64,000 bases of DNA from Methanosarcina sp. KYL-1 (GCF_024372725.1 NZ_VOUA01000011.1:1-64000); one strand, 5' to 3'. Positions 18,211 to 37,096 are shown, counted from the first letter of the stretch. The notes: generated from the letters alone by a model not told the origin. Numbers and translations: made by a program.

Positions 18211-18760
18211 ATAAACAAAACATATATAGTTAAACTAATTATAAACTTCGAAATGATTATATGTGAATAATTGTTTGTTTTTTCTGAATTATTTCTAATA
18301 TTTCTGTCATTTGTTTGTTTAGTTTCCTGCAGATTTTTTCCTCTTCTTTAAAGCTATAGAGGTTTAAACATATGTTTTATCACAAATTGCAATAAATTAT
18401 TTCAATGAGTTCCCTTTTTACCAGGCAATTTCTGGCAAATATCAAAAAAATTAAATATTCATAATTTCTGTTAATTAACTTGTATTATGTAACATAAAAT
18501 ATTGAAATTAACAATATTTTTTTGTAAATACTACACTTACTCCAGTCTCATACTAACAGTATTTGCGGTGTCAATATAATGAATTTAATCAAGTGAAATT
18601 CCTGCCGGTTATGCTTATTTCCTCCTCCGGAGCAGGATATTTCTGTGAAATAACCAGGCCTGAATTTTATTTTCCAGGGGTTTCCAGCCTGGTATCTGGA
18701 AGGAAGATATCTGTACTGAAGGGCCGGGAAATCGCTGCCCTGAGCAGGAACAAAAAGAAA
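18211..18760. promoter_or_regulatory. divergent AT-rich control region
   Basis: The region lies between the DUF2117 gene and the MacB-type permease. It contains several TATA-like runs (catatatag at 18221, long AT stretches from 18360 to 18530) and a repeated ttgtttgttt motif (about 18267 and 18312). The open frame extending upstream of the permease start over 18563-18760 has no family features and is taken as untranslated. Confidence 0.45.
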
Positions 18761-19981: not shown

Positions 19982-20923
19982 ATGAGGTACTTGGATTTTA
20001 CTAAAAAAGTTTTGGTACTGGGGCTGCTTGGAGCAGGACTATTATTCCTGCTTTCCTCCTTTTCGGAGACCGGGGGCTGGCAGGGCGACGGTACTCCTCC
20101 ATATACGATTGCAGAAGGAGTTGTCAGGGGCGAGGTATATGTAAACGGGGGGCACGGGTATACAGGGGAAAACCCTTACCTTGAATATTTCGAACTGCCT
20201 GCGGGGGATGTGAGGTATGCCAGGCTCTATGTGCCGGTCTGGAATTACGACAGCGGGGACAGCATCAGGGTGACGGTTAACGGGCACGAACTTGCATCGA
20301 GGCAGGAACCTGACTACGTTTCTGCCTGGGGGATCGGCCTCTACTGTATAGAAGCTAACAGCTCCCTTTCCCCCGGGATAAATGAGGTTTCGGTCATCTC
20401 CGAAAATCCGGGAGGAGGGCCCTACGGCGTAACCCTGGTTGCGGTCTCTGAGAACAGTTCCATGCCCCCTGTCAGTTTCTGGGTCAATGAAGGCAACTAT
20501 GCCCTGGCTTATACGAACAAAAAAGACAGCGTAAAGAGCACATTCAAAGGTACGCTTCCCGGGAAAAATGCAAGTCTCCATGCTCTGCTTGTGGCAGGCA
20601 CCGAAGGAGAAAGGGACGGACTCTATTTCGATTCTTTGCTCATAGGGAGCGATGTGGGCAGGTCTGCCGGGGGCAAATACTTTGACCTCTATTCGGTTTC
20701 CGTCTCTCCCGGAGGTCCGGAAAGCACTCTCCTTTTCGAACGGGGAGATGAAGGCTATCTCCACCCCTGTGTTGCGGTCCTGGTCCAGGAATCAGAGTCC
20801 GGCCGTGAGTTCCTTAAAACCTACGAACAAAAAGCCGAAAAGGGAGAACAGGTCCCTCTACCGGTAATCGCTGTCCTTCTCCTGGCCTGCCTGGCGCTTG
20901 CGCTGAGGTCCCGGAAGAGGTGA
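19982..20923 (+). CDS. DUF3344 surface protein with C-terminal membrane anchor
   Basis: The 313-residue protein has an N-terminal signal/anchor (about 8-25) and one DUF3344 domain (about 35-275). The domain has GGHGYTG, a YARLYVPVWNYD strand, GPYGVTLVAV, a WVNEGNYAL block and GYLHPCVAVLV, the sequence type called A here. It ends with a hydrophobic segment and RSRKR (about 290-313), like a C-terminal anchor or sorting signal without the PGF motif. It follows the MacB-type permease by 27 bp and precedes the ECF S component by 25 bp, so the three form one operon. An AGGAG ribosome site abuts ATG 19982; the in-frame TTG at 19991 has better spacing and may be the true start. Confidence 0.85.
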   Translation: MRYLDFTKKVLVLGLLGAGLLFLLSSFSETGGWQGDGTPPYTIAEGVVRGEVYVNGGHGYTGENPYLEYFELPAGDVRYARLYVPVWNYDSGDSIRVTVNGHELASRQEPDYVSAWGIGLYCIEANSSLSPGINEVSVISENPGGGPYGVTLVAVSENSSMPPVSFWVNEGNYALAYTNKKDSVKSTFKGTLPGKNASLHALLVAGTEGERDGLYFDSLLIGSDVGRSAGGKYFDLYSVSVSPGGPESTLLFERGDEGYLHPCVAVLVQESESGREFLKTYEQKAEKGEQVPLPVIAVLLLACLALALRSRKR

Positions 20924-20948: not shown

Positions 20949-22040
20949 ATGAAATCTGGATGGATTCTTGCAGTAATACTCGCGCTTGTCCTGCTGGCTG
21001 CCTGTGCCCCCGGGGTTTTTGCATCCGGGGCAGTTCCCGTTTCCTCTAACTCCCCCCTCAGGTGCAGCCTGGAAATTCCCCTTGACAAAAACCAGGCTCC
21101 TGACGTCCTTGTGGCGGGGCATTCATGGGAACGGGCCCGGATAACCCTTGAGAATGCGGGAAACAAGGCCATGGACGGGGTAACCGTAAGCATCGAAGTG
21201 CCCGAGGGCCTGGAAACCGGCATCCCCACCCAGCCGTACCTCATGACAAAGGAAGGACAGCAGATTAAGGTTGAGATAGGGACCCTTTCACCAGGCCAGA
21301 GCGCAGAGCTTCTTCTAGACGTAAAACCCCCGGCTTCAATAGAGTTTAAAAAAGAGGTCTCCTTTACTATTTTCACAAACTACGCCGGAGGTGAACAGCA
21401 AAGCAAATTCCCTATTAGCATCATACCCCCTCCTTCCTGGCTGACTTACTTCACGATCCTTGCAAGCCTCCTGCTCTTTGTCGGCATCCTTACGGCAGTA
21501 AAGCGTCTCGGGGTACTTGACCTCTTTACAACCGTTGACCTGATCACAATCGCGCTTCTTGCTGCCGTTATTGCCGTTGTGTTCAGGTACCTGAGCAAAC
21601 TTATAAACTTTGGCTGGTTTGACGGATTGGTCATTGCGATCCCCACCGTTGTCCTTATGGTGGTTGCCCTGCAGCTGGTCCGAAAGCCGGGGACTGCAAC
21701 CCTGCTCTTTACCTGCGTCCTCCTCATCAGCATGGTTGTCTGGGGCTCGCATGTAATGTGGCTGGGCTTTTACCTGGCTGAGGGAGTGGTAGTCGACCTC
21801 CTGGTCTTCCTGTTCAAAATGGACTATGCGGACAGGCGCCTGACAGCTGTGGTCTACGGCATATCGAGAGGCGCGGTTTCGACTCTTGTGTTCTACATGC
21901 TCTATGCTCCGGTGGAATGGAAAATCTCCTATGCGCCCTGGTACATCGGCCTGCAGCTTGGAATTGCCTGTGCAGGCGGACTGGTCGGAGGGCTGCTTGG
22001 CTACGATACGGCCGTTAAAATGAGCGGAGCAAGGCTCTAA
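20949..22040 (+). CDS. ECF-transporter S-component-like protein with extracellular beta domain
   Basis: The 363-residue product starts with a signal peptide containing a lipobox-like L-A-A-C (Cys19). An extracellular NEW3/DUF11-like beta domain follows (about 35-155, RARITLENAGNKAMDGVTVSIEVPEGL). The last 200 residues contain about six membrane helices, resembling an ECF transporter S component (substrate-binding membrane subunit). The EcfA ATPase and EcfT genes follow directly, which supports this reading. Typical S components have only the membrane part, so the attached ectodomain is unusual. The substrate is not evident; operon linkage to a DUF3344 protein and proximity to chelatase genes hint at a metal or tetrapyrrole ligand. 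Confidence 0.7.
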   Translation: MKSGWILAVILALVLLAACAPGVFASGAVPVSSNSPLRCSLEIPLDKNQAPDVLVAGHSWERARITLENAGNKAMDGVTVSIEVPEGLETGIPTQPYLMTKEGQQIKVEIGTLSPGQSAELLLDVKPPASIEFKKEVSFTIFTNYAGGEQQSKFPISIIPPPSWLTYFTILASLLLFVGILTAVKRLGVLDLFTTVDLITIALLAAVIAVVFRYLSKLINFGWFDGLVIAIPTVVLMVVALQLVRKPGTATLLFTCVLLISMVVWGSHVMWLGFYLAEGVVVDLLVFLFKMDYADRRLTAVVYGISRGAVSTLVFYMLYAPVEWKISYAPWYIGLQLGIACAGGLVGGLLGYDTAVKMSGARL

Positions 22041-22123: not shown

Positions 22124-23929
22124 TCACTCCTGCAGGGAGGGCAGGTCCGGGCACCGGGCCTGAAGGTAGCTTTTCAGTTCGGAGATGGTCAGCAGTGGGG
22201 GGACATCAATCCCCCGTTTTCTCAGGTCCAGGGCAAGCCTTGCGGGAAACGGGGGGGCGAGCCCGGCTGCGTCCAATTCCTCCGGGCTTGAAAAAACTTC
22301 TGCTGTCGGCCCGTCCAGCAGGATTTCCCCTTTTTTCAGCAAAACGACCCTTTCCGCATACTCTGCCGCAAGCTCCATATCATGGGTTATTAGAATCACG
22401 GTTTTTCCGAGCCTGTTAAGTTCCCGAATCCTGTCCAGGAACTTGTGGATGTGTCCCCTGTCCTGCCCCGTGGTCGGTTCGTCCAGGACCAGCAGGTCAG
22501 GTTCCAGGGCGAGAATAGACGCAACTGCCAGCCGCTGGCGCTGCCCCCTGGAGAGGGCGTGAGGGTGCCTTTCCCTGTATGGCGAAAGTTCCATCATTTC
22601 CAGAGCCGAGTTTGCCCTCCTCCCTACCTCCTCTTCGGGCAGGCCAAGGTTCTTGAGCCCGAACCTGATTTCTTCATACACGCTGTCCGTAAAGATCTGG
22701 GAGTCCGGGTTCTGGAAAAGGTACCCTACCTGCTGCGCCAGCCGGGCTGTGGAATATCCTTTTATATCTTTTCCGTTGAGGAGGACCCGCCCGCTTGAAG
22801 GCCTGCAAAATCCGATCAGGTGCCCCGCCAGGGTCGTCTTCCCGGCTCCATTGTGCCCAAGCAGGGCAAGAAATTCCCCGTGCCTGATTTCCAGGGAAAG
22901 GTTTTTCAGGGTTTCCGAGCCGTCCTCATGCCTGAAGCAAAGGTTTTCGACCCGGACGTGGGGCGATGTTTCCCGCGGCGGGGAGGACGCGACAGGAAGA
23001 GGACTTTCGTGCATTTTTTCTGTTTCCTGCAGGATTTCAGGCCGGCTTTCGGCTGCAGCAGAAGATTCTTCCAGGCTTTCGGCCAGGCGGCAAAGGAGGT
23101 TTTCGTAGGAAGGAGCCCTCGAAGCCCGGGAGTCCAGGCCCAGGAAGCGGGCAAGTTCGGTGAGCTGGGGGGGATGGATCCCGAGTTTTTTGAGTTTCTC
23201 TTCTTCCCTGCATAAGATTTCAAAAGGCTTCCCGTCAAGGATAATCCTGCCTTCGTCCATCACAAGCATGCGGTCTGCCATTTCAAAAACAGCATCGAGT
23301 TTGTGTTCGATCAGGATGATGGTTATCCGTTTTTCCGCATTCAACTGCCTGAGCAGTTCGAGCACTTCCAGGGTGCCTGCAGGGTCCAGGTCCGAAGTAG
23401 GCTCGTCGAGGATCAGGATGTCAGGCTCCATTGCCAGGTTTCCTCCAATTGCAGTCCGCTGTTTTTCCCCCCCCGAGAGTGTGAAGATGAACCTGCCCCG
23501 CAGCCCCTCCATCCGGACCGCTTTGAGGGCTTTTTCCACGCGGGACAGTACTTCAGGCCTGGGAAGGCCCAGGTTTTCGGGCCCGAAGGCAAGGTCTTCG
23601 CCCACTGTCAGGGAAAAAAGCTGGGTTTCGGGGTTCTGGAACACCATCCCCACTTCAAGGGCCAGCTTGTGGACTTTTTCGGTGTTAATGTCCTTTCCTC
23701 CTATCATCACGCTCCCGGAAAGGCTGCCTCCAGAAACCTCAGGCACCAGCCTGTTCAGGCAGCGGACAAGGGTACTTTTTCCGCAGCCGCTAGGGCCTGC
23801 CAGGAGCACAAACTCCCCTTTCTCAAGCTTGAGTTCCACGTCCGAAAGGGCCAGGGACTCCGAAAATGGATAGTTGTATCTGAGTTTTTCAAGCTTCACC
23901 TGTGGGTGTGGGTTTTTCATGGGGTCCAT
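22124..23929 (-). CDS. fused double ATPase of an ECF transporter (EcfA1-EcfA2)
   Basis: The 601-residue product consists of two ABC ATPase domains in tandem. Domain 1 has Walker A GPSGCGKST at 45-53, signature LSGGEKQRTAIG and Walker B DILILDEPTSDLD. A low-complexity Ser/Glu linker follows (about 285-315). Domain 2 has Walker A GHNGAGKTT, signature LSRGQRQRLAVA (Arg replaces the usual Gly) and Walker B DLLVLDEPTTGQD. The Q-loop FQNPETQLF/FQNPDSQIF is typical of cobalt/vitamin ECF ATPases. It lies between the S component (convergent) and EcfT (divergent), completing an ECF transporter. Both Met1 and Met4 are possible starts. Confidence 0.92.
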   Translation of the reverse strand: MDPMKNPHPQVKLEKLRYNYPFSESLALSDVELKLEKGEFVLLAGPSGCGKSTLVRCLNRLVPEVSGGSLSGSVMIGGKDINTEKVHKLALEVGMVFQNPETQLFSLTVGEDLAFGPENLGLPRPEVLSRVEKALKAVRMEGLRGRFIFTLSGGEKQRTAIGGNLAMEPDILILDEPTSDLDPAGTLEVLELLRQLNAEKRITIILIEHKLDAVFEMADRMLVMDEGRIILDGKPFEILCREEEKLKKLGIHPPQLTELARFLGLDSRASRAPSYENLLCRLAESLEESSAAAESRPEILQETEKMHESPLPVASSPPRETSPHVRVENLCFRHEDGSETLKNLSLEIRHGEFLALLGHNGAGKTTLAGHLIGFCRPSSGRVLLNGKDIKGYSTARLAQQVGYLFQNPDSQIFTDSVYEEIRFGLKNLGLPEEEVGRRANSALEMMELSPYRERHPHALSRGQRQRLAVASILALEPDLLVLDEPTTGQDRGHIHKFLDRIRELNRLGKTVILITHDMELAAEYAERVVLLKKGEILLDGPTAEVFSSPEELDAAGLAPPFPARLALDLRKRGIDVPPLLTISELKSYLQARCPDLPSLQE

Positions 23930-24040
23930 ACTATCGTATCCTTTGCTTATCCTTAAATGCTTAAAAAACTTATGAAAAATAAGAAATAGTTTGATTATAA
24001 TCTATGTTTGTGTGAATGCAAACCTCATGGAGGCTATGAA

Positions 24041-24904
24041 TTGAAGTGGATTTTCCGCTATGAACAAAAAGACAGCCTGCTTCACAGGCTGGACCCCCGT
24101 ATAAAACTGCTCTGGCTCTTCGGGGTCTCGGTCCTCAGTGTCGTGCTAGGGACTCCGGGCTTACTGGTGGCAGTATTCCTCTCAACCCTGCCTTTCTGGT
24201 TTATCCTGCGGCCTTCAGGAAGCAGGGTAAAGGCAATGCTGCTGGTCCTCGGGAGCATTTCCGTGAGCTTTATTCTCTCCCAGGCCCTTTTCTACTACTG
24301 GGCTAAAGACCCCCTGTTCACTCTTGTCCCTCCTTCCTTCCCGCTGCTAGGCCCCCTTACCGGAGGCGTCTATTTCTATACAGATGGGGCAGTCTACGGG
24401 CTGTACCAGTCCTTCCGCTTTATGACAGGGATTAGCGCTGCAATGCTTGTCCTTGCCACAAGCCACCCGAGCGAACTGATCACTGCCCTGGTCCGTTTTT
24501 TTGAAATAAGGGTTGGGGGAAAAAGTTACAGGATAGGCCTTCCCTACGAAATTGCGTTTATGCTCTCCTCAGCGATCAGTTTTGCCCCCACGATGCTTGA
24601 AGAATGCGGGGTCATCCTCAATGCGATGCAGGCAAGGGGACTTGAATTGAAAGGGGGGACCCGTACAAAAGTAAAGGCCATGAGATACATCCTCGTTCCC
24701 CTCGTGGTCAATATCCTCCGGGCCGGGCGAAAGCTTGCCGTAGCTGCCGATGCCCGGGGTTTCCGGGCAAACCGGAACAGGACCTATGTAAACGAACTCA
24801 AGCTGAAAAGGAACGATTATATCTTCCTGGCTTACACATTCTTTTTTACGGCAGGCGGGATCTATCTGAGCTATACGGGCTTTGGGGGAACGGTCCCCAT
24901 CTGA
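24041..24904 (+). CDS. ecfT: EcfT transmembrane coupling protein of an ECF transporter
   Basis: The 287-residue membrane protein has the EcfT/CbiQ signature region: DPRIKLLWLFGVSVLSVV near the N-terminus, several helices, then two coupling motifs with Ala-Arg-Gly (MQARGLELKGG and ADARGFRANRNRT) that contact the ATPases. It couples the double ATPase to the S component. The start is taken as TTG 24041, seven bases after a good GGAGG-type ribosome site (24029-24033); an upstream TTG at 24008 adds an unrelated 11-residue leader. It diverges from the ATPase gene across about 110 bp, which must hold both promoters. Confidence 0.9.
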   Translation: MKWIFRYEQKDSLLHRLDPRIKLLWLFGVSVLSVVLGTPGLLVAVFLSTLPFWFILRPSGSRVKAMLLVLGSISVSFILSQALFYYWAKDPLFTLVPPSFPLLGPLTGGVYFYTDGAVYGLYQSFRFMTGISAAMLVLATSHPSELITALVRFFEIRVGGKSYRIGLPYEIAFMLSSAISFAPTMLEECGVILNAMQARGLELKGGTRTKVKAMRYILVPLVVNILRAGRKLAVAADARGFRANRNRTYVNELKLKRNDYIFLAYTFFFTAGGIYLSYTGFGGTVPI

Positions 24905-24925: not shown

Positions 24926-26062
24926 TTAGGAATTCCTGCCCTTCCCTGCAAGGGCCCAGCTGACAAGTAACAGGGAAAAAGCCCATTGGACCCCGAAACC
25001 GGGGGCTTCTTTTGCTTCGGTCTCGTGGTTTCCGGCTGTTTCGGAGCTTTCCAAAGTTTCTTCGGAAGGTTCGGGGCTCTTTACTGCCCCCGGGTTTATT
25101 TCAACTGCCAGGATGGCATTCGAAGGCAGCACAAAGTCCCCAACTGCCTGGAAGCGAATGGAATTTTCTCCATCCCTCAGGTAGTCAGTGATGTCCGTCG
25201 TATCAATTTCCAGGTCCGGGTAAGGCCTGCCTGCGCAGATTCCGGGGAAAGATGCGTTATTTATCCAGAGGGTATTGTCTTCCCAGTTCCCTGCACGTGT
25301 AACCGTCCAGAGGGTTGCGCTCCGGATAGGTAGACTGAGGGATGGTTTCATCATTTCGCAAATTGTCATGGAAGGGGCCGCACCGAATTCCGGATTGCCG
25401 TTTTTGTCAAGCTGGGAGTTGAGTAAGTCTGCTCCCTCGCTTATCCAGTATTCCAGGTCTTTTCCGTTCGGGTCGGTGTAGATTATAAGCAGCCCGACGC
25501 CGTCAATACAGAAATAGGACGTACCTGGGCCTTTGTTTTCTATACACGTGCTGTAGACTCTGGACCCGTCTATGTACTCGCTTACATCGTAAGCCCAGGT
25601 GCCTGAGGGATAGTCATAGCTTCCCCATCCTTTCCTGTCGCTGTACTCTGTCCCGGGCTCAATTTCCTCGTCCTCGAAACGCAGGCTGAGCTCAGGGTAT
25701 CTCCCGGTCGTCCCCTCCGCACTCCAGCTCCAGTAGTTGTAAAGCCTTGCGGTTTTCACGCTTGCCCCTTCGGGCAGGTTTACCCTGTGGCTCACGGTAT
25801 AGGTATCTCCAGGGTAGAGCTTTTCGCTGTAATAACTGCTGCCGGCCGTAAAGGCCAGGCCTCCCCTCACGGATTCATGGGTGTAAAGGGTAAGGGGCCT
25901 GTCCGCCGTGTATCCGTTTACTACCGTTTCCTCTGCCTGTGCCGGAAATGCCAGCAGGCAAAACAGCCCTGCGAGCAGGCAGAGGAATATAGGGATCATG
26001 CTTCTGATGGTTCCTTGTGTGTTTTTTGGTCCTTCCGTTCTCCAGCTCATTTTTTGTCTCAT
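24926..26062 (-). CDS. DUF3344 surface protein with PGF-type C-terminal sorting signal
   Basis: The product is up to 378 residues, with a long N-region before a hydrophobic signal (about 23-42). Met22 is a possible start. It carries one DUF3344 domain of the second type (here type B): YSEKLYPGDTYTVSHRV, ARLYNYWSWS, DRKGWGSYDYPSGTWAYDVS, YFCIDGVGLLIIY, YWISEGADLL. A Glu/Ser/Pro-rich stalk leads to APGFG, a hydrophobic segment and GKGRNS at the end, an archaeosortase-type signal. It probably sits lipid-anchored at the cell surface. It is the last gene of a minus-strand set (31589 to 24926) of surface proteins. Confidence 0.87.
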   Translation of the reverse strand: MRQKMSWRTEGPKNTQGTIRSMIPIFLCLLAGLFCLLAFPAQAEETVVNGYTADRPLTLYTHESVRGGLAFTAGSSYYSEKLYPGDTYTVSHRVNLPEGASVKTARLYNYWSWSAEGTTGRYPELSLRFEDEEIEPGTEYSDRKGWGSYDYPSGTWAYDVSEYIDGSRVYSTCIENKGPGTSYFCIDGVGLLIIYTDPNGKDLEYWISEGADLLNSQLDKNGNPEFGAAPSMTICEMMKPSLSLPIRSATLWTVTRAGNWEDNTLWINNASFPGICAGRPYPDLEIDTTDITDYLRDGENSIRFQAVGDFVLPSNAILAVEINPGAVKSPEPSEETLESSETAGNHETEAKEAPGFGVQWAFSLLLVSWALAGKGRNS

Positions 26063-26134
26063 TCTTTCAGCCCTTCAGTCCTGTCTATCTCTTACATATA
26101 CTGTCAGTTATACATGCTGTCAGTTATTTTTTGT

Positions 26135-27346
26135 TTACGAAACTTCTCTTATTGTTACTCTCAATTTCACTTCAGTTGAGTTCTTTTCCTCTCCCTGGTC
26201 AGGTTCGGGTGCAGGTTCTTCGGCTTTCTTATCTGCTTTGTAGTCCCTGTACGAAATTCTCCTGTACACTCTGATTATATCGTTTTCGTCGTCTTCAGAA
26301 CCTGAACTTATTGCATAAGCTTGGCCGGAGAGCTGTACGTATGCATGGGCTTCCGGCACCCTGTAAGCTCCGGGCTGCTCGGAGCTGATGCAGTATGAAA
26401 ATACCCTGCGTTCATCCGGAGCCAGCACAAACTCCCGGTTTAACGCCGACTCTTCATCCGTATCAGAATCTTCTATGAAGGTAAAAGTGCCGGGGAGCGC
26501 ATCAAAGAACCGGACTTTCACAGTACGTTTCTGTATATTTTTTACGGAGACTGTGACATACAACGTTTTTCCCGTGAAGGTCTCAGAGTTTGCGAATTTG
26601 TAGACTTCAAGGGGTTCTTCAACCTTTATTTCAACAGTCTCGGACGTGAAATGTTCTCCCGAGCTGTCTGTCCAGCTTGCCCTCACGGTGACCAGGTAGC
26701 TTTTTTTAATTCTGTCCGGGAACCTGAATTTAAGGTCAGCGGTTTTTTTTGCTCCCGTGTCAAGTATGAATCGCTGAGGGACTGCTTCCCGGATGACGAG
26801 CCCGTCCGAATCCACCTCAAGCCGGATCTGGTCGACCTTTACCTCCCCGGTGTTTCGGAGTTCCATCTCAATGCTGACTTCCTCGTCCAGGAAGTATTCT
26901 TCCTCATCCGCCTCAAGGTCCAGCTCCAGAGCTGCGGTCTCTTCTTCCGGTTCCTTTGTTTCGAATATGAGCTCGGCTCTCGGGGAGTAAAGGCTGCCGA
27001 ACATCGGGAGTTTTTCCTGGTCAGTGACGTTTCCGGCCTTTAACCTGAGCTTCTTGTTGTCCAGATAGCTCCAGCCGGATGAGTTATTCTCAAGGGCCAC
27101 GTCCCCCAGGACTGTCCCGGATTCCGAGACCCTGAGCACGACCATACCGTAGCCGTCAAACTCCAGGGCTTCCACGGTGTACCCATCTTTGGAGAATGTT
27201 GGGTTTTCAAGCCCCAGGGTAATTTGCAGGCTCTCCCATTCATCTTCTTCTGCCCAGGCGAGGGAAACTCCGGCTCCCAGGAGGAGCAGGAGGAAAATGA
27301 AGCCAGATGCCGTATGAAGGAAGCTTTTTTTGTTCACTTTCCCCAC
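26135..27346 (-). CDS. secreted beta-domain protein (DUF11/NEW-like), surface
   Basis: The 403-residue protein has a signal peptide (about 12-32). Its N-terminal beta region (35-125, YTVEALEFDGYGMVVLRVSESG) resembles S-layer-related modules. Three CARDB/DUF11-like beta sandwiches follow (VSIEMELRNTGEVKVDQIRLEVDSDG; YVTVSVKNIQKRTVKVRFFDAL). The C-terminus is charged and has no anchor. Its ATG lies 13 bases inside the end of the upstream DUF3344 gene (27334-29052), so the two are translationally coupled. It is probably an extracellular partner of the DUF3344 proteins; the ligand is unknown. Confidence 0.75.
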   Translation of the reverse strand: MGKVNKKSFLHTASGFIFLLLLLGAGVSLAWAEEDEWESLQITLGLENPTFSKDGYTVEALEFDGYGMVVLRVSESGTVLGDVALENNSSGWSYLDNKKLRLKAGNVTDQEKLPMFGSLYSPRAELIFETKEPEEETAALELDLEADEEEYFLDEEVSIEMELRNTGEVKVDQIRLEVDSDGLVIREAVPQRFILDTGAKKTADLKFRFPDRIKKSYLVTVRASWTDSSGEHFTSETVEIKVEEPLEVYKFANSETFTGKTLYVTVSVKNIQKRTVKVRFFDALPGTFTFIEDSDTDEESALNREFVLAPDERRVFSYCISSEQPGAYRVPEAHAYVQLSGQAYAISSGSEDDENDIIRVYRRISYRDYKADKKAEEPAPEPDQGEEKNSTEVKLRVTIREVS

Positions 27347-29052
27347 CTCCTCCTGAGCTGTACGAAGGCGGCCAGCAGGATTCCTGCCCCTCCGGCAAAG
27401 GGCGGAAACGGAAGGCTTTCGGTCTCGCTTTTCTCAGGAATGGCCCTTGAAGTTCCCTGGACAATGGCGTTTCTTTCCCCGTTCTCCAGCAGGTCCCTCT
27501 TCGGGGAGATTTCTTTGCTTCCGGGGACATCCACAAACAAAAATTCTCCTGCCATGTTGCCAGCTCCGTCAACAGCACTGACAAATATCCTGTTGAAGCC
27601 GGCAGGCAGCTCCACTTCGGTCCGCCATTTCCCTTCCGAAAGCAGGGCTGGTTCCCCATTTACGGTTACACTGATGTCTTCGCTTGTATCTTCCACAGTC
27701 CCGCTTACAAGAATTAGCCCGCTGTTTACGGATTCTCCGTCTTCAGGCTGCTCGATCTCAATTTCGGGAGGGGTCAGGTCGATGATATTAACTTTCAGGG
27801 GAGTGTTATTGTTGTTTATCTCGCAAAGTTCTTTTCTTCTGTCCGTGGAGTCTGCAAATACTTTAAGGAAGTGCTCTCCGTCGCAGTCAGCTTCCCAGTT
27901 AAACTCCACGGTCTTTTTCCCCCCGTTTCTCAGAGAGGATATGAGAGCTGTGGAGACAATCCTGTCATCTACATAGAGCGCGACCTGAAAACTGGACGCA
28001 GGGTCGTCCCCTATGTTTTCAATGCTTGCTTTTATTATATTTTCCTCCCCTGCATAGAGGAGGGGGACTACCAGGTCCGAAACTTTCAGGTCCATGTCTC
28101 CTTCCTCTCCCGTGCTCAGGCTAAGCACCGCAAGCACCGGGTGCAGGTACTCTTCTTCTCCCCTTTCAACCCTCATCTCGTTTCCACTTTTCTCAAGGTA
28201 GTCCAGCACATCAAAGACCTTGAAGTCAAAATAATCTTTTGAGTTTGCGATGTCATTTTTGTTTGTCCCGTCCGAAAGCTGTTCGTCGTTGAAATATAGG
28301 TAGTCTTCTTCCCCGCTGGTACCTGTGAGGTATACGACGGACAGGCTTGCAAGCTCGTATTTATCCGGGTTCACCGTGCCAGAAAAACTTACGGTTAGTT
28401 CATCGTTCGTGTCCCCTTTCCCGTCCGAACTTTCCCCGTGCAGGTTTACGTTCCCTTCTTTGATCCAGTACTTTACATCGTCTCCATCTTCGTCTTCGTA
28501 TACCGCGACCAGGACTACTCCATATACCTTCCCGTCAATACTTCCGCCGGTTTTTACCACGGCCTCCGCCGATCCCGGACTTGCAATCTCAGTAACATTG
28601 TATGTTACCCAGTATACGCCGTTTCCCGAACAGTAGACTTCCGGATTGTCATCCTCTTCCCCTTTTAGATCCAGGGTTTCGAATTCAAAGTCATTAAAAG
28701 TGACGTCCAGAGTTCCCGTATTCCGGGCGTTGCCCCCCCAGACTCCCACATAGAGCCTCGCAAATTTTGTAGAGTTTCCCGGTACATTGAAGGTCTGTGT
28801 ATAAGGGGTTGCATCAAGCCCGTGTCCCCCATCCACATACACCCCGCCTTTCACGGTCCCGGAATCGACGCTTTTTAAGCTGTCAGGTTCCGGGCAACCG
28901 TCCTCCACGTAATCAGCCAGGCCAGGCTGGACCGACATAATAAGAAGCGCAAGAGCCGCAGCAAAGAGGCAGTATGCAGCCTTCTTCCCGTAAAACGCCG
29001 CAGCAAATTTTTCCAGTGTTCTTTTCGGCCTCATACTTTTTTTAATTTTCAT
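27334..29052 (-). CDS. DUF3344-CARDB surface protein with C-terminal membrane segment
   Basis: The 572-residue product starts at MKIKKSMRPKR; a start at 29094 would add 14 residues with no role. It has a signal peptide (about 25-45) and a type A DUF3344 domain (about 55-320: GGHGLDATPYTQTF, ARLYVGVWGG, YCSGNGVYWVTYNV, GNVNLHG, LSVVYLTG, YFDFKVFDVLDYL, YLHPVLAVLSL). A CARDB beta sandwich follows (about 325-420), then an Ig-like module (about 425-510, PPEIEIEQPEDGESVNSG) and a C-terminal hydrophobic segment ending RRRWGK. It overlaps the downstream secreted gene by 13 bases. It is probably anchored in the cell envelope. Confidence 0.87.
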   Translation of the reverse strand: MKIKKSMRPKRTLEKFAAAFYGKKAAYCLFAAALALLIMSVQPGLADYVEDGCPEPDSLKSVDSGTVKGGVYVDGGHGLDATPYTQTFNVPGNSTKFARLYVGVWGGNARNTGTLDVTFNDFEFETLDLKGEEDDNPEVYCSGNGVYWVTYNVTEIASPGSAEAVVKTGGSIDGKVYGVVLVAVYEDEDGDDVKYWIKEGNVNLHGESSDGKGDTNDELTVSFSGTVNPDKYELASLSVVYLTGTSGEEDYLYFNDEQLSDGTNKNDIANSKDYFDFKVFDVLDYLEKSGNEMRVERGEEEYLHPVLAVLSLSTGEEGDMDLKVSDLVVPLLYAGEENIIKASIENIGDDPASSFQVALYVDDRIVSTALISSLRNGGKKTVEFNWEADCDGEHFLKVFADSTDRRKELCEINNNNTPLKVNIIDLTPPEIEIEQPEDGESVNSGLILVSGTVEDTSEDISVTVNGEPALLSEGKWRTEVELPAGFNRIFVSAVDGAGNMAGEFLFVDVPGSKEISPKRDLLENGERNAIVQGTSRAIPEKSETESLPFPPFAGGAGILLAAFVQLRRRWGK

Positions 29053-29120
29053 TTCAGGCAGCTCCATCAAAATCATAAGATTAGCAAACTCCAATAAAAA
29101 GAATAAAATGGAAACCTTTT

Positions 29121-31589
29121 TCAGGCGGCAATTTCCGCCCAGAAAGTAAGGTTCCCTTCAAAATTCCCCGTGCCCGCATAATCCGAGGGTACCCTGAGGG
29201 CAACATTTGAGTTGCTCGATTTTTTTGAGGCTATCGTTTTGCTGAAGCTGGCCCAGGGGGCCGAATCAAGCAGGATCCCGTCCATAAAGAGGTTGTCGGC
29301 TGAATCCGTGACATCGGCTGTGACATCTAAGGCATACTTCCCGTTATTCTGGAGGGTAATTGTCTCTGCACGACTTGTTTCTCCCGGGGAAAGCGTGCCG
29401 AAATAGATTTCATTTGGGGTAACGGATAAGGAGATTGCCGGAAGGATTTCGACTCCTATCGAAATCGAGGACGAGTCATTGCCACCGGATGAGTCATTGC
29501 CGTACCTGACCAGGAGGATGGCCCCAGAAGGCACCAGGAAGTCCCCTCCTATCTCTGAGGGTGCGGCGCTGATCTCGATGGCATTATTTTCTTCCTTGAG
29601 GCAGTCTTCTACGGCTTCCAGCCGGTCGATGTCCAGGGATGAAGAGGGGCTCCCTTCATAAATGCCGGAGAATATGGCTTCATTGAAGAGCAGGAAATTA
29701 CCTTCGTTCTTTCCTGAGGGGACTACTGTCCAGAGTTCGGCGCTGCCGACCTGGTCGAGGTCCACGGTCCCGCTAAAAAGGGCTTCGGTCGTCGCCTCTT
29801 CAGAAGTCATGCCTCCTGAGGATCCGGTTGTGGAGAGCATGTCTGCGCCTTCATTTATCCAGTACTCGGTTTCCTCTCCTTCGGGTTCTTCGTACACCAC
29901 AAGGAGACACACCCCGTTAATGATAAAAGACCTCGAAGTATCCGGGTTGGTATTGGTGATGATTGTGCGGTACTCCCCGTTTCCTGGCACTAGACCCGTG
30001 ACATTGCATGCCCAGGTCCCCGAGGGGTAGTCATAACTTCCCCAGTCTTTCCTGTCACTGTAGGTGGCTTCAGGCATAACGGTGTTTCCGGCAAAGTTCA
30101 GGCTCATTACCGGGGTATCTGCATTGCTCCAGGTCCAGTAAGTGTAAAGCCTGGCAAGCTTCACGTTTGCCCCTTCCGGAAGTGAAAGAGTGTGGTTTAC
30201 TGTATATGTGGCTCCTGCGGCCATCGACCCGCTGTAATAGCTGTCTCCGTAGTCATAGCTGATGTTCCCTCTCACGATCCCGTGGGCAAAGGTTGCAAGC
30301 GGCATGTCTCCTACATAGCCATTGTGCAGCACTACCTGTTCAAGGCTCTTTTCGTTGTTTGTCCTGTCCGGGTCACTTATGACGTTGTATGGATCGGCAA
30401 CGGCTTTCAGGCTGTATGTCTTTTCCTCTCCGGGTTTCCAGGTAAAGCTGACAACGGTGTCAACTCCGGAGGGAAGCGTCTCTATAGTTTCGTTGCCAAC
30501 CTCAACCCCGTCTTCAAAAAGCACGACTGGAGTCCCGCTTACGGCTTCGGGGCCTTCGTTTCTTACCGTAACACTCACGGTATTGTTAAGGTCTTTCCAG
30601 GCTCCTGCGTAAGAATTATGGAATACCGCAAGTTCTGTAAGGTTCAGGTCCGCATCCTCATTCCCGGAAGTTTCTTCTTCGTATTCTGCCGTGAGGGTAC
30701 CGAGGACTATTTTATAGTAGGAACTGCTCCTGTTGTAGGTCATGGTGTTTGTGCCGGCCGGGTTTAAGCTGTCCGTAACATCCCATGTATCGGAACCGCC
30801 TCCGTAGTATCCCTGGGGAGTACTTGAGACCAGCTCACCCTCGTTGAATGCATATGCTCCGTTTGCGCTTGCCATATACACCGCAGTCAGGTTCGCACCT
30901 TTGGGGAGGGAGCCTTCCGGCAGCTGAGCATCAAAATCCGTGCTGCCAATATAATCTACTCCTAAGGAATTCTCACTGTAGTAGCTGTCCACGTCATGCC
31001 CCAGGTTAACCTGGTACCAGGTCGTTCTATCGCTACTGTTATTGTACGCTACAACCAGGGACATCAGCTTAATACGCCCGTCAAAGGTGCTGTCTATGGG
31101 GGCCGTGTTTATGACTGCAGTGTTCTCCCCGGGCTGTACGAGGTCTGTGACATTATAGTTCATTACATAGTCGCTTGTTACCCTGTTTGTATGGCTGTTT
31201 ACAAGGACAAATCCGTCCCCTCCGTTCATTTTGAACACAAAAGGAACATTCAGGGTCTCATTTCCGAGAACAGTTCCTCCAAAGCTGACGTTTGCCGTTC
31301 CCCGGTAATTGGCATCCTGGCTGCCGCAGTATACGCTGGTAAAGAGCATTGCCCAATCAATTTCCGCATCATCCGGGAGGGTAAATGTCTTGCTTATGGT
31401 TATGGGTTGTCCCTTCACCTGGTCTGCTATCCCGTAATAGCTGTCGAAGTATACTCCTCCGGTGACAACTCCTTCATGGACTTCGGTCAGAGGGATCCCG
31501 CCTAAGGCTTCGTCGGCGGAACAGGTCCCTGCACTCAAACACAAGCTCACAAACAAAGTTAAGAGTATAAGGAAAGGCTTTCGATTCAT
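29121..31589 (-). CDS. secreted protein with two different DUF3344 domains joined by CARDB
   Basis: The 822-residue protein has a clear signal peptide (1-25). The first DUF3344-like domain (about 35-305) is a divergent type A: VTGGVYFDSYYG, AMLFTSVYCGSQ, SDYVMNYNVTDL. A CARDB module follows (about 315-410). The second DUF3344 is type B (about 415-690: YYSGSMAAGATYTVNHTLSL, ARLYTYWTWS, DRKDWGSYDYPSGTWACNV, INGVCLLVVYEE, YWINEGADML), and a last beta module (about 705-822) has no membrane anchor. It heads a minus-strand surface-protein operon that continues to 24926. It is notable as a natural fusion of the two domain types that occur in separate adjacent genes elsewhere in the window. Confidence 0.88.
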   Translation of the reverse strand: MNRKPFLILLTLFVSLCLSAGTCSADEALGGIPLTEVHEGVVTGGVYFDSYYGIADQVKGQPITISKTFTLPDDAEIDWAMLFTSVYCGSQDANYRGTANVSFGGTVLGNETLNVPFVFKMNGGDGFVLVNSHTNRVTSDYVMNYNVTDLVQPGENTAVINTAPIDSTFDGRIKLMSLVVAYNNSSDRTTWYQVNLGHDVDSYYSENSLGVDYIGSTDFDAQLPEGSLPKGANLTAVYMASANGAYAFNEGELVSSTPQGYYGGGSDTWDVTDSLNPAGTNTMTYNRSSSYYKIVLGTLTAEYEEETSGNEDADLNLTELAVFHNSYAGAWKDLNNTVSVTVRNEGPEAVSGTPVVLFEDGVEVGNETIETLPSGVDTVVSFTWKPGEEKTYSLKAVADPYNVISDPDRTNNEKSLEQVVLHNGYVGDMPLATFAHGIVRGNISYDYGDSYYSGSMAAGATYTVNHTLSLPEGANVKLARLYTYWTWSNADTPVMSLNFAGNTVMPEATYSDRKDWGSYDYPSGTWACNVTGLVPGNGEYRTIITNTNPDTSRSFIINGVCLLVVYEEPEGEETEYWINEGADMLSTTGSSGGMTSEEATTEALFSGTVDLDQVGSAELWTVVPSGKNEGNFLLFNEAIFSGIYEGSPSSSLDIDRLEAVEDCLKEENNAIEISAAPSEIGGDFLVPSGAILLVRYGNDSSGGNDSSSISIGVEILPAISLSVTPNEIYFGTLSPGETSRAETITLQNNGKYALDVTADVTDSADNLFMDGILLDSAPWASFSKTIASKKSSNSNVALRVPSDYAGTGNFEGNLTFWAEIAA

Positions 31590-32351
31590 AAATTTCCCAC
31601 CTGAATTATTATGATCTGGATTTTCGAAGGCTCAATTTATTTGTATTGTTTTACGGCACTGGCCGGGTTAAGATCCTGAGCGTATGCGTTTCATTTATCA
31701 ATTTATATAAATTTTGTATAATGAAATATTACTTTTTTTATATGAAGTTAAATTAATAGTGATTATTTATTTATTATTTAACAATTTTGATTTTTAACTT
31801 CCTTATACATACATACAAATTCATAATTATTTTTACATTATTGTTAATCATTTTTCCCTATTTTTAGTTGAATTATAGCAGGACCCTTCAATAGAAATAA
31901 CGTATGAAAGGATTCGAATGCAGTTCCTCAAGAAACTATAACCAGGGCTTATGATGCTTTTCTTTCCCGTTTTTAGGGAGGTTTCGCGGGTCCATGCATA
32001 TTTAAAATGAAAAAAAGGTGTTTTTCCAAAGGCATTGTACTCCAAACTTAAGGTTCTTGCGCCCTTCTTAAAAAATGGTTATGTCTTTGCCTTTTGAATC
32101 CGTGAAATTCTGGCCTCCATTTTGAGATCTTAAAGGCGTATCATACGTTTTTTCATACAATAAGATCATATGGTAACATTTAATAATATGCTAAATCTCA
32201 TTATTTCCATAATTGGAGGCGAAGATCCTGCATAATTATGAAGCATCATATCATAATTTTAGCTCCTGATGCCCTCTTAACAAGCAAAAAAAGCTTACAT
32301 AATTACAAAACTTAGGTCGTTCCCTCCTACACAGCAGGAAAGTGGATTCCC
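31590..32351. promoter_or_regulatory. divergent AT-rich region between two DUF3344 operons
   Basis: The 760 bases lie between the minus-strand operon (start 31589) and the plus-strand one (start 32352). The AT content is very high from 31690 to 31870 and around 32140-32300, with many TATA-like runs. A short minus-strand open frame (31848-32045) has no family features. Both operon promoters should be here; no clear operator was recognised. Confidence 0.45.
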
Positions 32352-34118
32352 ATGAAAAAATGCCTGGTATTTGTTCTGTTAATTCTCCTGGTCCCGGTTT
32401 CCGAAGCCCGTTATTCCTATGAAGGCATGCCTTTTGAAATGGATGCTCAGGGCACCATCCAGGGAAATATGTACCTCAGCGGAGGACACGGACTCGGTTT
32501 TCCTCCATACTCCCAGAGTTTTGACGTCCCCGGGGGCTCGGTCCTCTGGGCCCGTTTGTATGTCGGGGTCTGGGGCGGAACGGAAAACTATGAGGGCTGG
32601 GTCCAGCCCGGTTTCAATGGGCTCCAGCTTGAAAGGCTGCCACTCTCCGGAGAATGCGATGAAAATGATAATGTCTACTGTTCGGGGCATGGGGTTTACT
32701 GGGTCTCATATGATGTAAGCTCCCTTGCAAAAGCCGGGGAAAATACGGTGGAAATCCTGACGAGCAGAGGCGAACCCGGAAACAGGCTGGATGGAAGGGT
32801 CTATGGGACCGTGCTTGCGGCGGCTCTGGAGGACCAGAAGGCTCCGGTGATTTCCTACCAGATCTATGCAGGCAACGTAAACCTGCATGGGATGAGCCTG
32901 AGCGGGAGCAGTGTGAATGTCAACGACTTTGCAGGTGTTAATTTCAGCCCCGTTCCTGACCCGGAGAGCATAAAGGATGCAGAACTTTCGGTTGTGTACC
33001 TGAGCGGCTCGAAGGGACTGCCCGATTACCTTGAATTTAATGGCGAAAGGCTCGGGACTCCGTCTCAGTACCTTTCGAATGAGAGGTATGGGGGGGTGGC
33101 AACGGATATCGCCAATGAGGTGAGCTATGATGCCCTGGGAGGCAGCGGAAGCCCTGGCAGCTACTTTGACATAGAGGCGTTTGATGTGCTTGAAAAATTG
33201 CAGGCTGAAAACAGGGTTACCTTTCTGAGAGGATCGGACCTGGACGGGAATGGAGAAATCGATAGCTGGGAAGGAGAAGACTATGTGCATCCTGTCCTGG
33301 CATCCCTTGTCCTGATCCGCGGGACAGCTGGAACTCCGCTCCCCGACTTATCCCCGGAGCTGGCAATCAGGGAAGAAGCCCTGGTGGACGGGGAGGATGC
33401 GGAAATCCCCTTTATAATACACAACCCCGGAGGGCTATATAATGAAAATTGTACGGTAAGCTTCCGGGTTGACGGGCAGGAGGTTTCCACCGCAGCTTTT
33501 CGGATGGATGCAAGAGGGGTATACAGTTCCTCTTTTACCTGGCCTGCGGAAAAAGGGGATCATGAGTTTGAGCTTGCAGCGGACCCTGAAAGTAAAGTGA
33601 AGGAATCGGATGAAGGAAACAACGTTTGTAAGTATGCAGCCCATGTCAAATCGGGACCCGAACTCTCGGTTTCCCTGGGGGAACCCGTAAAAGTCAAAAA
33701 TGGTGAAGGGGTTTCGGCAGTTTCGGCTTTTTTCCTCTTCCCGTTTGCTCTTTTAGGGGTGCGGAGGAAAAAAACACGTGCCCTCCTCTTGCTTGCAGTC
33801 CTTGTATTCGGGCTTTTCGGGGGGTGCGTTGAACAGGAATCCGAAACCAAACAGCTCACATACCTGGTCCCGTTAAGCATAACTAATAGTGGAGAAGCGT
33901 CTGCCCGGGACTTTAGCGTGAATCTCTATCTTGATGGGGAAAGTGTGACCGTTATGGATATTCCGGAACTGGAAGGTAAGGCTTCAATTTCCGAGGAGCT
34001 GCATATTAAAACAGAGAAGGGAGAGCATACCCTGAATTTAAAGGTGGATGAAAGCAACCGTATAACCGAGTCGGATGAGGAAAACAATGAATGTGAGATC
34101 TTTTATAATTTTACTTAA
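32352..34118 (+). CDS. DUF3344-CARDB protein with internal anchor followed by internal lipobox
   Basis: The 588-residue product has a signal peptide (1-19) and a type A DUF3344 domain (about 30-330: GGHGLGFPPYSQSF, ARLYVGVWGG, YCSGHGVYWVSYDV, GNVNLHG, YFDIEAFDVL, YVHPVLASLVL). A CARDB module follows (about 340-435). Then come two hydrophobic runs: SAFFLFPFALLGVRRKK (about 457-473), which looks like a C-terminal sorting or anchor tail, and ALLLLAVLVFGLFGGC (to Cys492), which looks like a lipoprotein signal. About 95 residues with a second CARDB-like module follow. It reads as two genes fused end to end, or a protein processed into two. It overlaps the next DUF3344 gene by 32 bases. Confidence 0.85.
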   Translation: MKKCLVFVLLILLVPVSEARYSYEGMPFEMDAQGTIQGNMYLSGGHGLGFPPYSQSFDVPGGSVLWARLYVGVWGGTENYEGWVQPGFNGLQLERLPLSGECDENDNVYCSGHGVYWVSYDVSSLAKAGENTVEILTSRGEPGNRLDGRVYGTVLAAALEDQKAPVISYQIYAGNVNLHGMSLSGSSVNVNDFAGVNFSPVPDPESIKDAELSVVYLSGSKGLPDYLEFNGERLGTPSQYLSNERYGGVATDIANEVSYDALGGSGSPGSYFDIEAFDVLEKLQAENRVTFLRGSDLDGNGEIDSWEGEDYVHPVLASLVLIRGTAGTPLPDLSPELAIREEALVDGEDAEIPFIIHNPGGLYNENCTVSFRVDGQEVSTAAFRMDARGVYSSSFTWPAEKGDHEFELAADPESKVKESDEGNNVCKYAAHVKSGPELSVSLGEPVKVKNGEGVSAVSAFFLFPFALLGVRRKKTRALLLLAVLVFGLFGGCVEQESETKQLTYLVPLSITNSGEASARDFSVNLYLDGESVTVMDIPELEGKASISEELHIKTEKGEHTLNLKVDESNRITESDEENNECEIFYNFT

Positions 34119-35076
34119 TGTCCTGCTGCTGCTCAGCTTGCCTGTTTCGGCTTCCTATGCAGGGGACAAGCCCCTGCAAACTGCCCTTCATGGTAAACAC
34201 CCGGGAGCACTTGATTTTTCCCTGGGGGACGGCAGGTACAGCGGGGAACTGACGTACAATGACAGCTATACCGTTAATTTCAAGGTCGATCCCCCTGCCG
34301 GCAGTTCCATAAAATTTGCAAGGGCTTATGTTTACTGGGGCTGGAGCAAAAAAGGGCTTGAAGGCATCTATCCGGAGTTCAGTGCCTCCCTTATTCATGA
34401 AGGTACTTCCGTGCCCCTTCCTGAGGGACAGAGGTATGCCGACAGCAAGGGCTTTGCATCCAGGTATGACTTCTTTTCAGGCACGGATGCTTATGACCTG
34501 TCCGGGGTGATTTCAAAATCCGGCAGCTATTCGGTCTCGCTTGTGAATACCGCCGGGGACGGGAGCACTTTTTGCGTACAGGGTATCGGGCTTCTCCTGG
34601 TCTATGAAAGTCCTGAGCTGCCAGTTGTCGAATACTGGATCTCCGAAGGCTGTGACATGCTGTATGCCGAATATGGGATAGATCCCGAAATGGCCACAAC
34701 GACTGCTTACTTTGAAGGGGAAATTGACCCCCGGGACGTTTCAGATGCACGCCTGATAACGGTCTCTCCTTCTGGAGGCTACAGTTCGGGCACCGGGGCC
34801 AGGAGCAAGCTTTTCTTTAATGAGAATACGAAGCAAGTTCCCGTCCTGGGCGAGATCATACAGCTCCTGTTCGGAAGTGGAAAAAGCTGGAAAAATGTGT
34901 ATGTGACAAACGAAACTGCCCAGGTCGCCCTGGACGAAAGGCAGGTGGGAGATTATCTGGAATCGGCAGGGAATTTTGCCAGCATCCAGGACAATGGGGA
35001 TTATCTCCTGGCAACAAATGCAATACTCTTGCTTGAATTTGAAGGGCCTGAAAAGGGAACCAAAGCAGGGGCCTGA
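34087..35076 (+). CDS. secreted DUF3344 protein, no anchor
   Basis: The 329-residue product starts at ATG 34087, six bases after a GAGG ribosome site inside the preceding gene; an ATG at 34075 adds four residues. It has a signal peptide (about 1-23) and one type B DUF3344 domain: YTVNFKVDPPAGSSIKFARAY-type strand, YADSKGFASRYDFFSGTDAYDLS, TFCVQGIGLLLVYE, YWISEGCDML, NAILLLEFEG. There is no C-terminal hydrophobic tail. It is translationally coupled to the type A gene before it, as the type B/type A pair is in the other operon. The LolD-type ATPase follows after 57 bases. Confidence 0.85.
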   Translation: MNVRSFIILLNVLLLLSLPVSASYAGDKPLQTALHGKHPGALDFSLGDGRYSGELTYNDSYTVNFKVDPPAGSSIKFARAYVYWGWSKKGLEGIYPEFSASLIHEGTSVPLPEGQRYADSKGFASRYDFFSGTDAYDLSGVISKSGSYSVSLVNTAGDGSTFCVQGIGLLLVYESPELPVVEYWISEGCDMLYAEYGIDPEMATTTAYFEGEIDPRDVSDARLITVSPSGGYSSGTGARSKLFFNENTKQVPVLGEIIQLLFGSGKSWKNVYVTNETAQVALDERQVGDYLESAGNFASIQDNGDYLLATNAILLLEFEGPEKGTKAGA

Positions 35077-35133: not shown

Positions 35134-35808
35134 TTGAATATTGTTGAAACCATGGACCTCTCTAAATTCTATAAATTTGATTCGGGGCTGCGCGTGGAAG
35201 CCCTTAACGGGATAGATGTGGATATCGAGGAGGAGGAATTTGTTTCCTTCATGGGGCCTTCAGGGTCCGGAAAGTCCACGCTGCTTAATATCATAGGCTG
35301 CCTGGACAGGCCAACTGCGGGCAGGGTTTTCATAGAGGGCGGTGAAGTTGACTACGGCAATTCCTCCGGTCTTGTCCGGCTGCACAGGCAGACAATAGGT
35401 TTTGTCTTCCAGGCTTTTAACCTGATCCCAACAATGAACGCCCTGGAGAATGTCTGCTACCCGATGTATTTTAACAGGGTCGGGCGTTCCCTGCAAAAAC
35501 AGAGGGGAAACGAGCTTCTCGACCTGGTCGGGCTGGGGCACCGGGCGCATCACCTTCCCTCCGAGTTATCCGGGGGGGAACAGCAGAGGGTTGCCATAGC
35601 AAGGGCGCTTGCAAACAGCCCCAGGCTTATTCTGGCAGACGAGCCCACAGGAAACCTTGATTCAGGTACCGGTAAAAAGATCACGGCTCTTATGAGAAAA
35701 ATTAACCGGGAGCAAGGGGTCAGTTTTGTCGTTACGACCCACGACCCTGAAATGGCCATGGCTGCGGACCGGGTAGTGAAGCTAAAGGACGGAAAACTCA
35801 CTGAATGA
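35134..35808 (+). CDS. LolD/MacB-type ABC transporter ATP-binding protein
   Basis: The 224-residue ATPase has Walker A GPSGSGKST at 41-49, the Q-loop FQAFNLIP, signature LSGGEQQRVAIARAL (about 144-158), Walker B LILADEPTGNLD and switch H in TTHDPEMA. Signature and length place it in the LolD/MacB/FtsE group. It starts at TTG, about seven bases after an AGGAAGGG ribosome site (35120-35127). Its natural partner is a MacB/FtsX-type permease; none follows it, and the only one in the window is at 18761. It is probably in the operon with the two preceding DUF3344 genes. Confidence 0.92.
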   Translation: MNIVETMDLSKFYKFDSGLRVEALNGIDVDIEEEEFVSFMGPSGSGKSTLLNIIGCLDRPTAGRVFIEGGEVDYGNSSGLVRLHRQTIGFVFQAFNLIPTMNALENVCYPMYFNRVGRSLQKQRGNELLDLVGLGHRAHHLPSELSGGEQQRVAIARALANSPRLILADEPTGNLDSGTGKKITALMRKINREQGVSFVVTTHDPEMAMAADRVVKLKDGKLTE

Positions 35809-36172
35809 GATTTTTCAAGCAGGATGCCGGAACTTTCCCTCTGAAGCAGGTCCGGGTTGCTGGTCATGGATAACAGTTCTGGAAACGCTTCAGAGACGAA
35901 AAAGCCTGTTTTTTCTGGGTATATTTTCTCGGGAGAGAACTTCAGAGGGCTGTCAGCTTTTGTATTGAAAAGTGTTTTTTCCCTCCCGTGAACATCCTGT
36001 CAGGATGCCATGTACCGGGGGTGCTTGCTTATGTGCTTCCTTCTTTTAAAATCCAACTTTCTAAATATATAAACTAAATAATCGTTGAATAACTATATAC
36101 AGGTTTGTGTTTTTATTTAAACGGACAATTTTAAGTTGACCTAACTCTGGTGAATTGGTTGGATGTGAACAG
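35809..36172. other. intergenic region with a 41-codon open frame
   Basis: An ATG at 35866 opens a 41-residue frame to TGA 35989-35991 (MDNSSGNASETKK..., then FSGENFRGLSAFVLKSV). It has no strong ribosome site. In this position, right after a LolD-type ATPase, it could be the remnant N-terminus of a lost permease, but the similarity is too short to claim. A 7-bp hairpin (catcctg/caggatg, about 35993-36007) follows. AT-rich promoter-like sequence for the next gene lies at 36060-36130. Confidence 0.3.
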
Positions 36173-37096
36173 ATGAATAGAAATAAAGGATCGAAGTTTG
36201 TTAGTTTGTTTTTGATTGTCCTTTTTTTTGGAGTCATACTGGTTCCGGCGGCAGGGGCTGCTCCGGGGAAAGACCCAGGTAAGGAAGACGGTGGGGAAAA
36301 GAATGTTGATGATTCCTCCTGGGAGGAATGGAAACAGGCCCACACCGTGGAAGTAGAGGTGACAACGGTTTACAATTACAAAAAAGATGGGAATTTCGAA
36401 ATTACCGAGACTTATTCCGGAGAGAAACTTAAACAGAAGTTCAAAGTCGATAAATTAACAAAATCAAAATCTTTTACAGTTCCCTCGGGGAAGCAGGTAA
36501 CTGTGAATACGCAGGCAGGTCCTTTTGAGATGCAGCCGGGGGACCGTAAAGAGGTCCTGTCCGAGAAATCCGTTGTCCTGACAACCGCCGATGACCCTTA
36601 TTCATGGTCGGAAGTTACTGGTTCAACATCTGTCTCTTATCCTCAGTGGACATGGTCAAAAGTCCTGTGGTTCTATGAACTCGAAGACCCGATAAACCTT
36701 ATCTGGGAGCAGAGTAACCTGAAAACAGTTAAAAGTGTAATCCTGAAGCAAAGGTGGACTGACAACCCCTCGGAATACACTCACTACATCTCATATCCTG
36801 ACGGGACCTGGGTACGCGGGGACGGTGTGGCCGACAGCAAGTACCGGGTGCTCGGAGGCTATCATGCACGGCTCTGGGAACTCCCGGGCGGTGCGGTGGT
36901 AGCAAATGCCCACCATGACGATGACATATTCATCCTTCCCGGGCACCAGGTGGACAGGTATGAAGCCGCTGAAGGTAAAGTTGCAAGCTTTTTCAATACC
37001 TGGTCTGTCCTTCAGGATTATATTTACCTTGCTAACCCTGTTGGAACTCCCGGTTATGAGCCATATAATGACGGAAAGGCAACCCTTATCACGTAA
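36173..37096 (+). CDS. secreted hypothetical protein
   Basis: The 307-residue product starts at ATG 36173 (MNRNKGSKFV), with a signal peptide ending near AGAAPG (about 30); an upstream in-frame TTG adds six residues. The mature part begins charged, then is rich in aromatic and beta-type sequence (TTVYNYKKDGNFEITETYSG, SYPQWTWSKVLWFYEL, VILKQRWTDNPSEYTHYISYP). It has an acidic motif A-H-H-D-D-D-I at about 249-255 that could bind metal. No membrane segment other than the signal is present. I do not recognise the family. It is a single gene with a terminator-like hairpin after it. Confidence 0.65.
   Translation: MNRNKGSKFVSLFLIVLFFGVILVPAAGAAPGKDPGKEDGGEKNVDDSSWEEWKQAHTVEVEVTTVYNYKKDGNFEITETYSGEKLKQKFKVDKLTKSKSFTVPSGKQVTVNTQAGPFEMQPGDRKEVLSEKSVVLTTADDPYSWSEVTGSTSVSYPQWTWSKVLWFYELEDPINLIWEQSNLKTVKSVILKQRWTDNPSEYTHYISYPDGTWVRGDGVADSKYRVLGGYHARLWELPGGAVVANAHHDDDIFILPGHQVDRYEAAEGKVASFFNTWSVLQDYIYLANPVGTPGYEPYNDGKATLIT

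Follow-up and report, generated by a model that had tools for sequence, protein, structure and literature searches.

Seven DUF3344 domains in the window

Do two types of DUF3344 domain that lie side by side in Methanosarcina sp. KYL-1, and once within a single protein, form a heterodimer, as the original prediction argued by Rosetta-stone logic? We addressed this question in a stretch of 64,000 nucleotides (the window) from the 4.04 Mb genome of this organism, which is of the Methanosarcina type (G000). Domains were called with the Pfam model PF11824 (DUF3344; 275 positions, curated cut-off 27.2 bits). All six domains named originally were recovered, together with an A-type domain that had been overlooked. 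The seven domains (A0, B1, A1, FA, FB, A2 and B2, of which FA and FB share a protein of 822 aa) all exceeded the cut-off, at 77-243 bits. This single Pfam model matches every one of them without telling A and B apart; what is described below on the two types, their internal duplication and their operon goes beyond PF11824.

The overlooked domain, A0 (19982-20923, + strand), belongs to a protein with a C-terminal transmembrane (TM) segment. It adjoins a multi-TM, ECF S-like protein (20949-22040, +) with an extracellular NEW3/DUF11-like part and a weak ABC_cobalt match.

Two discrete types of DUF3344

DUF3344 is nearly absent from the literature, yet it was present in 63 of the 295 sampled genomes of the archaeal phylum, about a fifth. 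M. acetivorans is among the species with a match to the family. A single-protein scan of genome contigs returned seven loci, each of which belonged to a methanogen or an ANME archaeon, and a search of plasmid and phage collections for the family gave no match.

A tree of 219 domains from the fetched loci was split into 95 A and 124 B domains, with SH support of 100 on both sides. In a maximum-likelihood IQ-TREE analysis of 56 diverse domains, A and B were again separated by a single branch (support 100/100), which each of the 200 bootstrap trees checked also contained. With profiles built from the family of the window (f1) alone, 169 of 169 domains of other families were assigned to the type given by the tree; the margin was never below 64 bits, and no domain fell within 10 bits. 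As the labels came from the tree, this result measures separability and is not fully independent. The two types are thus real and discrete. Together with their pairing at the scale of the phylum, this rules out one continuous family without paired organisation.

Alignment of N-half and C-half profiles revealed an internal duplication common to both types (probability 88% for A and 57% for B). Because A and B share it, the duplication is probably older than the split between them. The A side of the tree also contains a long-branched subfamily of 41 domains, here called A'.

The sequence motifs by which type A had been described hold for a narrower group. They mark Methanosarcina-like members and are frequent in only some A domains: GGHG was found in 15 of 95 and is not conserved in the orthologues of the A protein of neighbouring A-B pairs (pair-A). 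For these reasons a common metal site formed by GGHG, YCSG and GNVNLHG was rejected as the shared function of type A.

Order of A and B within proteins and between genes

Among the proteins with at least two DUF3344 domains, 37 of 50 were mixed, compared to 26.3 expected from label shuffling, and A came first in 34 of these 37 (17.3 expected). The preference for A before B remained after related domains had been collapsed, with 11-12 A-to-B junctions within proteins versus two B-to-A junctions. Neighbouring genes with a single domain each, less than 100 bp apart, were ordered A then B in 25 of 26 cases and B then A in one. Here the excess disappeared upon collapsing, which left 5-6 A-to-B and seven B-to-A junctions. 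Since the collapsed A-to-B junctions do not exceed the reverse, the neighbouring gene pair is essentially one inherited ancient operon rather than many independent pairings. The predicted pairing goes beyond chance in neighbours as well as in fusions, but the gene neighbours are mostly orthologues of one operon.

Other proteins depart from a one-to-one arrangement. Long proteins carry the arrays BB, ABBB, BAAB and BABAA. Solitary B domains occur in seven genomes (G141, G149, G172, G225, G207, G269 and G243), in proteins of 1036-1214 aa that contained PEGA in both members scanned, and a solitary A' occurs in G055; A and B therefore do not obligately co-occur. A candidate hidden A domain at the N-terminus of the solitary-B proteins was rejected (hhalign probability 0.3%). 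Because of these solitary domains and arrays, an obligate 1:1 heterodimer is not a family-wide rule.

The same proteins bring in the first of two competing explanations, namely that both types serve structural or adhesive roles as modules of mosaic, S-layer-associated surface proteins, and that their adjacency stems from ancestral duplication and shared descent and does not need binding. We consider this unlikely, though it accounts for a good part of the data: DUF3344 is accompanied by CARDB, PEGA, CBM96 and Big_2 modules in proteins of up to 3431 aa, BB, ABBB and BABAA arrays and solitary B are what it would lead one to expect, and DUF3344 has been described as a fibrillar-adhesin-like cluster of ambiguous function (PMC9210967). 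It does not predict the excess of A-first proteins that survives the collapsing of related domains. Moreover, an overlapping operon with ABC transporter genes over many genera and a linkage to CobN, both described below, would be unexpected for plain adhesins.

The left-hand genes and the 822-aa fusion

B1 (24926-26062, -) is a B-type protein whose C-terminus resembles, by eye, a PGF-type sorting signal. A1 (27334-29094, -) combines an A-type DUF3344 domain with a CARDB domain and a glucodextranase-B-like domain, and has a C-terminal tail that appears hydrophobic by eye. Both are present as originally described, but they are separated by a gene for a CARDB-like secreted protein (26135-27346, -), a companion of A1 in L061 and L072. 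The complete three-gene arrangement was found in L061. It is not general, as the near relatives G007 and L131 have B1 beside A2-B2, without A1.

The 822-aa protein (29121-31589, -) has the predicted layout of an A-like domain, CARDB and a B domain. Its A part (FA) is a member of the third subtype, A', and has none of the GGHG, YCSG and GNVNLHG motifs, while the trees place its B part (FB) closest to B1 and not to B2. Consequently, the fusion does not join the lineages of the A2-B2 pair. Fusions of A' and B in one chain occur in many lineages.

A2 and B2 form a conserved operon with ABC transporter genes

The right-hand neighbours proved to be a conserved overlapping operon. A2 (32352-34118, +; 588 aa) consists of a signal peptide, an A-type DUF3344 domain, CARDB, a TM hairpin and a second CARDB; its soluble A-CARDB part covers about residues 20-440. 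B2 (34075-35076, +; start probably at 34087) overlaps A2 and consists of a signal peptide and a B-type DUF3344 domain, without a membrane anchor. It is followed by a LolD-type ABC ATPase (35134-35808, +). Across the phylum, the conserved order is A (about 600 aa), an overlapping B (about 340 aa), the LolD-type ATPase and an FtsX/MacB-type permease; of the 25 neighbouring A-B pairs, 21 have the ATPase after B and 20 have the permease. In the window the permease (18563-19954, +) is displaced and lies 15 kb from the ATPase. The close relative L131 has the same separated order, with ECF genes between permease and ATPase, whereas the two genes are contiguous in L060, in ANME-2 loci and in other families.

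Several further features of this region were observed. At residues of about 450-500 of A2, the mid-protein TM hairpin is followed by a lipobox-like FGGC and the second CARDB, an architecture that looks as if two surface proteins had been joined. The A2 segment DLDGNGEIDSWE is an EF-hand-like calcium-loop sequence, and its D...DG.I...EGED pattern is kept in pair-A orthologues. Beyond the ATPase, positions 36155-37096 encode a secreted protein of 313 aa, which had no Pfam match and no relative in loci L058-L114.

The two members of the pair differ in how they are attached. A signal peptide is found in the pair-A proteins, 22 of 25 of which also contain a TM segment around residue 490. Of the pair-B proteins, 23 of 25 carry a signal peptide but lack any other TM segment, so that B either needs a partner to remain at the surface or is released. 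The divergence of A and B was congruent over 23 orthologous pairs (r=0.90; best of 20,000 permutations, 0.45), which demonstrates co-inheritance and is compatible with interaction, but is not proof of it.

A LolD-type ATPase and an FtsX/MacB-type permease in one operon with dedicated extracytoplasmic proteins are also features of the type VII ABC systems LolCDE, MacAB and FtsEX. The archaeal system differs in that there is no outer membrane, and in that the partners are DUF3344 proteins rather than LolA-, MacA- or PcsB-like proteins. The second competing explanation is one that we regard as improbable: A would homodimerise or act alone and secreted B would dock on the FtsX-type permease instead of on A, the linkage reflecting the pump that both serve, as could be suspected from the absence of an anchor in B, from the B gene directly preceding the ATPase and permease genes and from A0 lying next to the ECF S-like protein with no B gene between, but the A'-B fusions of many lineages suggest that A and B work side by side.

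Predicted structure and the proposed heterodimer

AlphaFold predicted all-beta domains with high confidence for both the fusion and A2 (pTM 0.82 for A2). The fusion model, based on 77 sequences, had a mean pLDDT of 93.1 and a pTM of 0.65; each domain was confident, and the relative placement of A and B was not fixed. Single A proteins were excluded from its alignment, as MAFFT had spread them over both halves. The models suggest a double jelly-roll-like fold for DUF3344. Fold matches in the PDB comprised CARDB (3idu, 2kl6), glycosidase-type jelly rolls, reelin, BcsB, S-layer and Ig-type chains; they had low whole-chain TM scores and point to no function. A sequence search of solved structures gave only CARDB-type and other Ig-like domains. 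The matches to S-layer and glycosidase jelly rolls, like the pTM of the fusion, would also suit structural or adhesive modules.

An A:B heterodimer is plausible. It fits the strict A-then-B overlapping operon, the anchored A and unanchored B, the congruent divergence and the fusions in cis, although gene order and congruent divergence are also expected from co-inheritance. The Rosetta-stone argument itself is weak for mosaic extracellular modules, because these also form BB, ABBB and BABAA arrays and occur as solitary B. The original prediction is partly supported: the paired organisation and the fusions stand, the two types do not always occur together, and the fused lineages differ from those of the right-hand pair.

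The CobN/ECF island

The DUF3344 genes of the window lie in an island that includes a CobN-like chelatase subunit (10465-14325, -) with a ChlID-like partner, an ECF-type transporter with a double ABC ATPase (22124-23929, -) and a CbiQ/EcfT-type transmembrane protein (24008-24904, +), and an ABC-2 exporter. The linkage of the DUF3344 pair to CobN is strong. Seven single-contig genomes contain both, and in each of them the A-B pair was 2.9-20.4 kb from CobN; multiplying the individual chances gives 4e-12 on the assumption of independent genomes, which does not hold. CobN was present in 51 of 63 genomes with DUF3344 versus 126 of 232 others (p=1.3e-4, genomes again not being independent). Some genomes have the pair without CobN (G211, G121 and G123). 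Conversely, three Methanosarcina without DUF3344 (L138, L140 and L141) retain CobN-ECF-ABC islands; in L138, which was scanned with Pfam, beta-propeller and S-layer-domain proteins occupy the place of DUF3344.

A CobN-like chelatase is linked to A-B-LolD-FtsX across several archaeal families (L136, L137 and L142-L147), and in L145 the CobN-like gene is followed by a CobB/CbiA-like amidotransferase. A0, the S-like protein, EcfT and EcfAA are kept together in Methanosarcina and ANME-2. With its CbiQ-family protein and double ABC ATPase the window resembles ECF/CbiMNQO-type transporters, but its S-like component can be recognised only weakly and has an A-type DUF3344 protein as its partner.

On a Methanoperedens plasmid, DUF3344 proteins lie beside NikR, CbiMNQO and EcfT/EcfA genes (PMC9674854). 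As a rule, however, adjacency to NikR was rejected: nikR is near universal and, among the matches listed, was near the island only in G291. A shared inverted-repeat operator was sought in the divergent promoters, where only AT-rich dyads with no common core were seen, without a significance test.

In the CobN-like de-chelatase haem systems HmuS/BtuS of Bacteroidota, too, a CobN-like subunit has ABC transporters and surface proteins in its vicinity (PMC12583661, PMC6460266). The archaeal island differs by its ChlID-like partner, its ECF parts and DUF3344. No HmuY, HmuR or HmuTUV domain was found among the proteins scanned at 159-46376 of the window, and a published study likewise finds no complete hmu operon in archaea (PMC12583661).

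Discussion

Our best explanation, which we favour tentatively, is that one internally duplicated, all-beta extracellular domain diverged long ago into two paralogous forms, A and B, and that these act together as extracytoplasmic subunits of an ABC complex like LolCDE/MacB within a CobN/ECF island, probably for metal or tetrapyrrole acquisition. In this view, the ABC complex of the A2-B2 operon would be of the type VII (LolCDE/MacB) kind, with A2 and B2 as its extracytoplasmic partners. A would be tethered to the membrane via its TM hairpin, and secreted B would be retained at the surface through A, the permease or the two together. The job may be to capture or handle a scarce metal, or a metal-tetrapyrrole, on the cell surface, with nickel as the leading guess; the genes around make such a job likely, since the island also includes a CobN/ChlID-like chelatase, an ABC-2 exporter and an ECF transporter that has A0 as an A-type partner of its own. 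What the data show are the two types and their conserved order, the fusions, the anchors, the operon and the linkage to CobN; that A touches B, that both assemble with the ABC proteins, and what the substrate is, we infer. As to function, the acquisition of a metal or tetrapyrrole fits best. Counted against this explanation are the pTM of the fusion, which gives no confident packing of A on B, solitary B and A', the arrays that are not 1:1, pair genomes without CobN, the rarity of nikR near the island among the matches listed, the lack of a convincing shared operator, and CobN islands without DUF3344.

A more specific and rather doubtful version envisages an archaeal machine not described before. 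In it, anchored A and soluble B would make up a heterodimeric receptor of the double jelly-roll type, and a mechanotransmitting LolD-FtsX ABC pump would drive this receptor to capture or release a nickel or tetrapyrrole ligand. The ligand would be passed to the ECF transporter, which has an A-type receptor of its own, and to the CobN-like chelatase. If true, this receptor-pump machine would give orphan archaeal CobN proteins a function. The role of archaeal HmuS/CobN homologues has been described as unclear (PMC12583661), and two CobN-like proteins of M. barkeri change with the iron and sulfur source (PMC10846266); the linkage of CobN to DUF3344 bears on the question of what these homologues do.

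With two ordered types in a conserved ABC operon, an anonymous surface family becomes a testable complex. A family that comes in two versions, neighbouring or fused, beside pump and chelatase genes suggests a two-part surface module of metal or cofactor acquisition.
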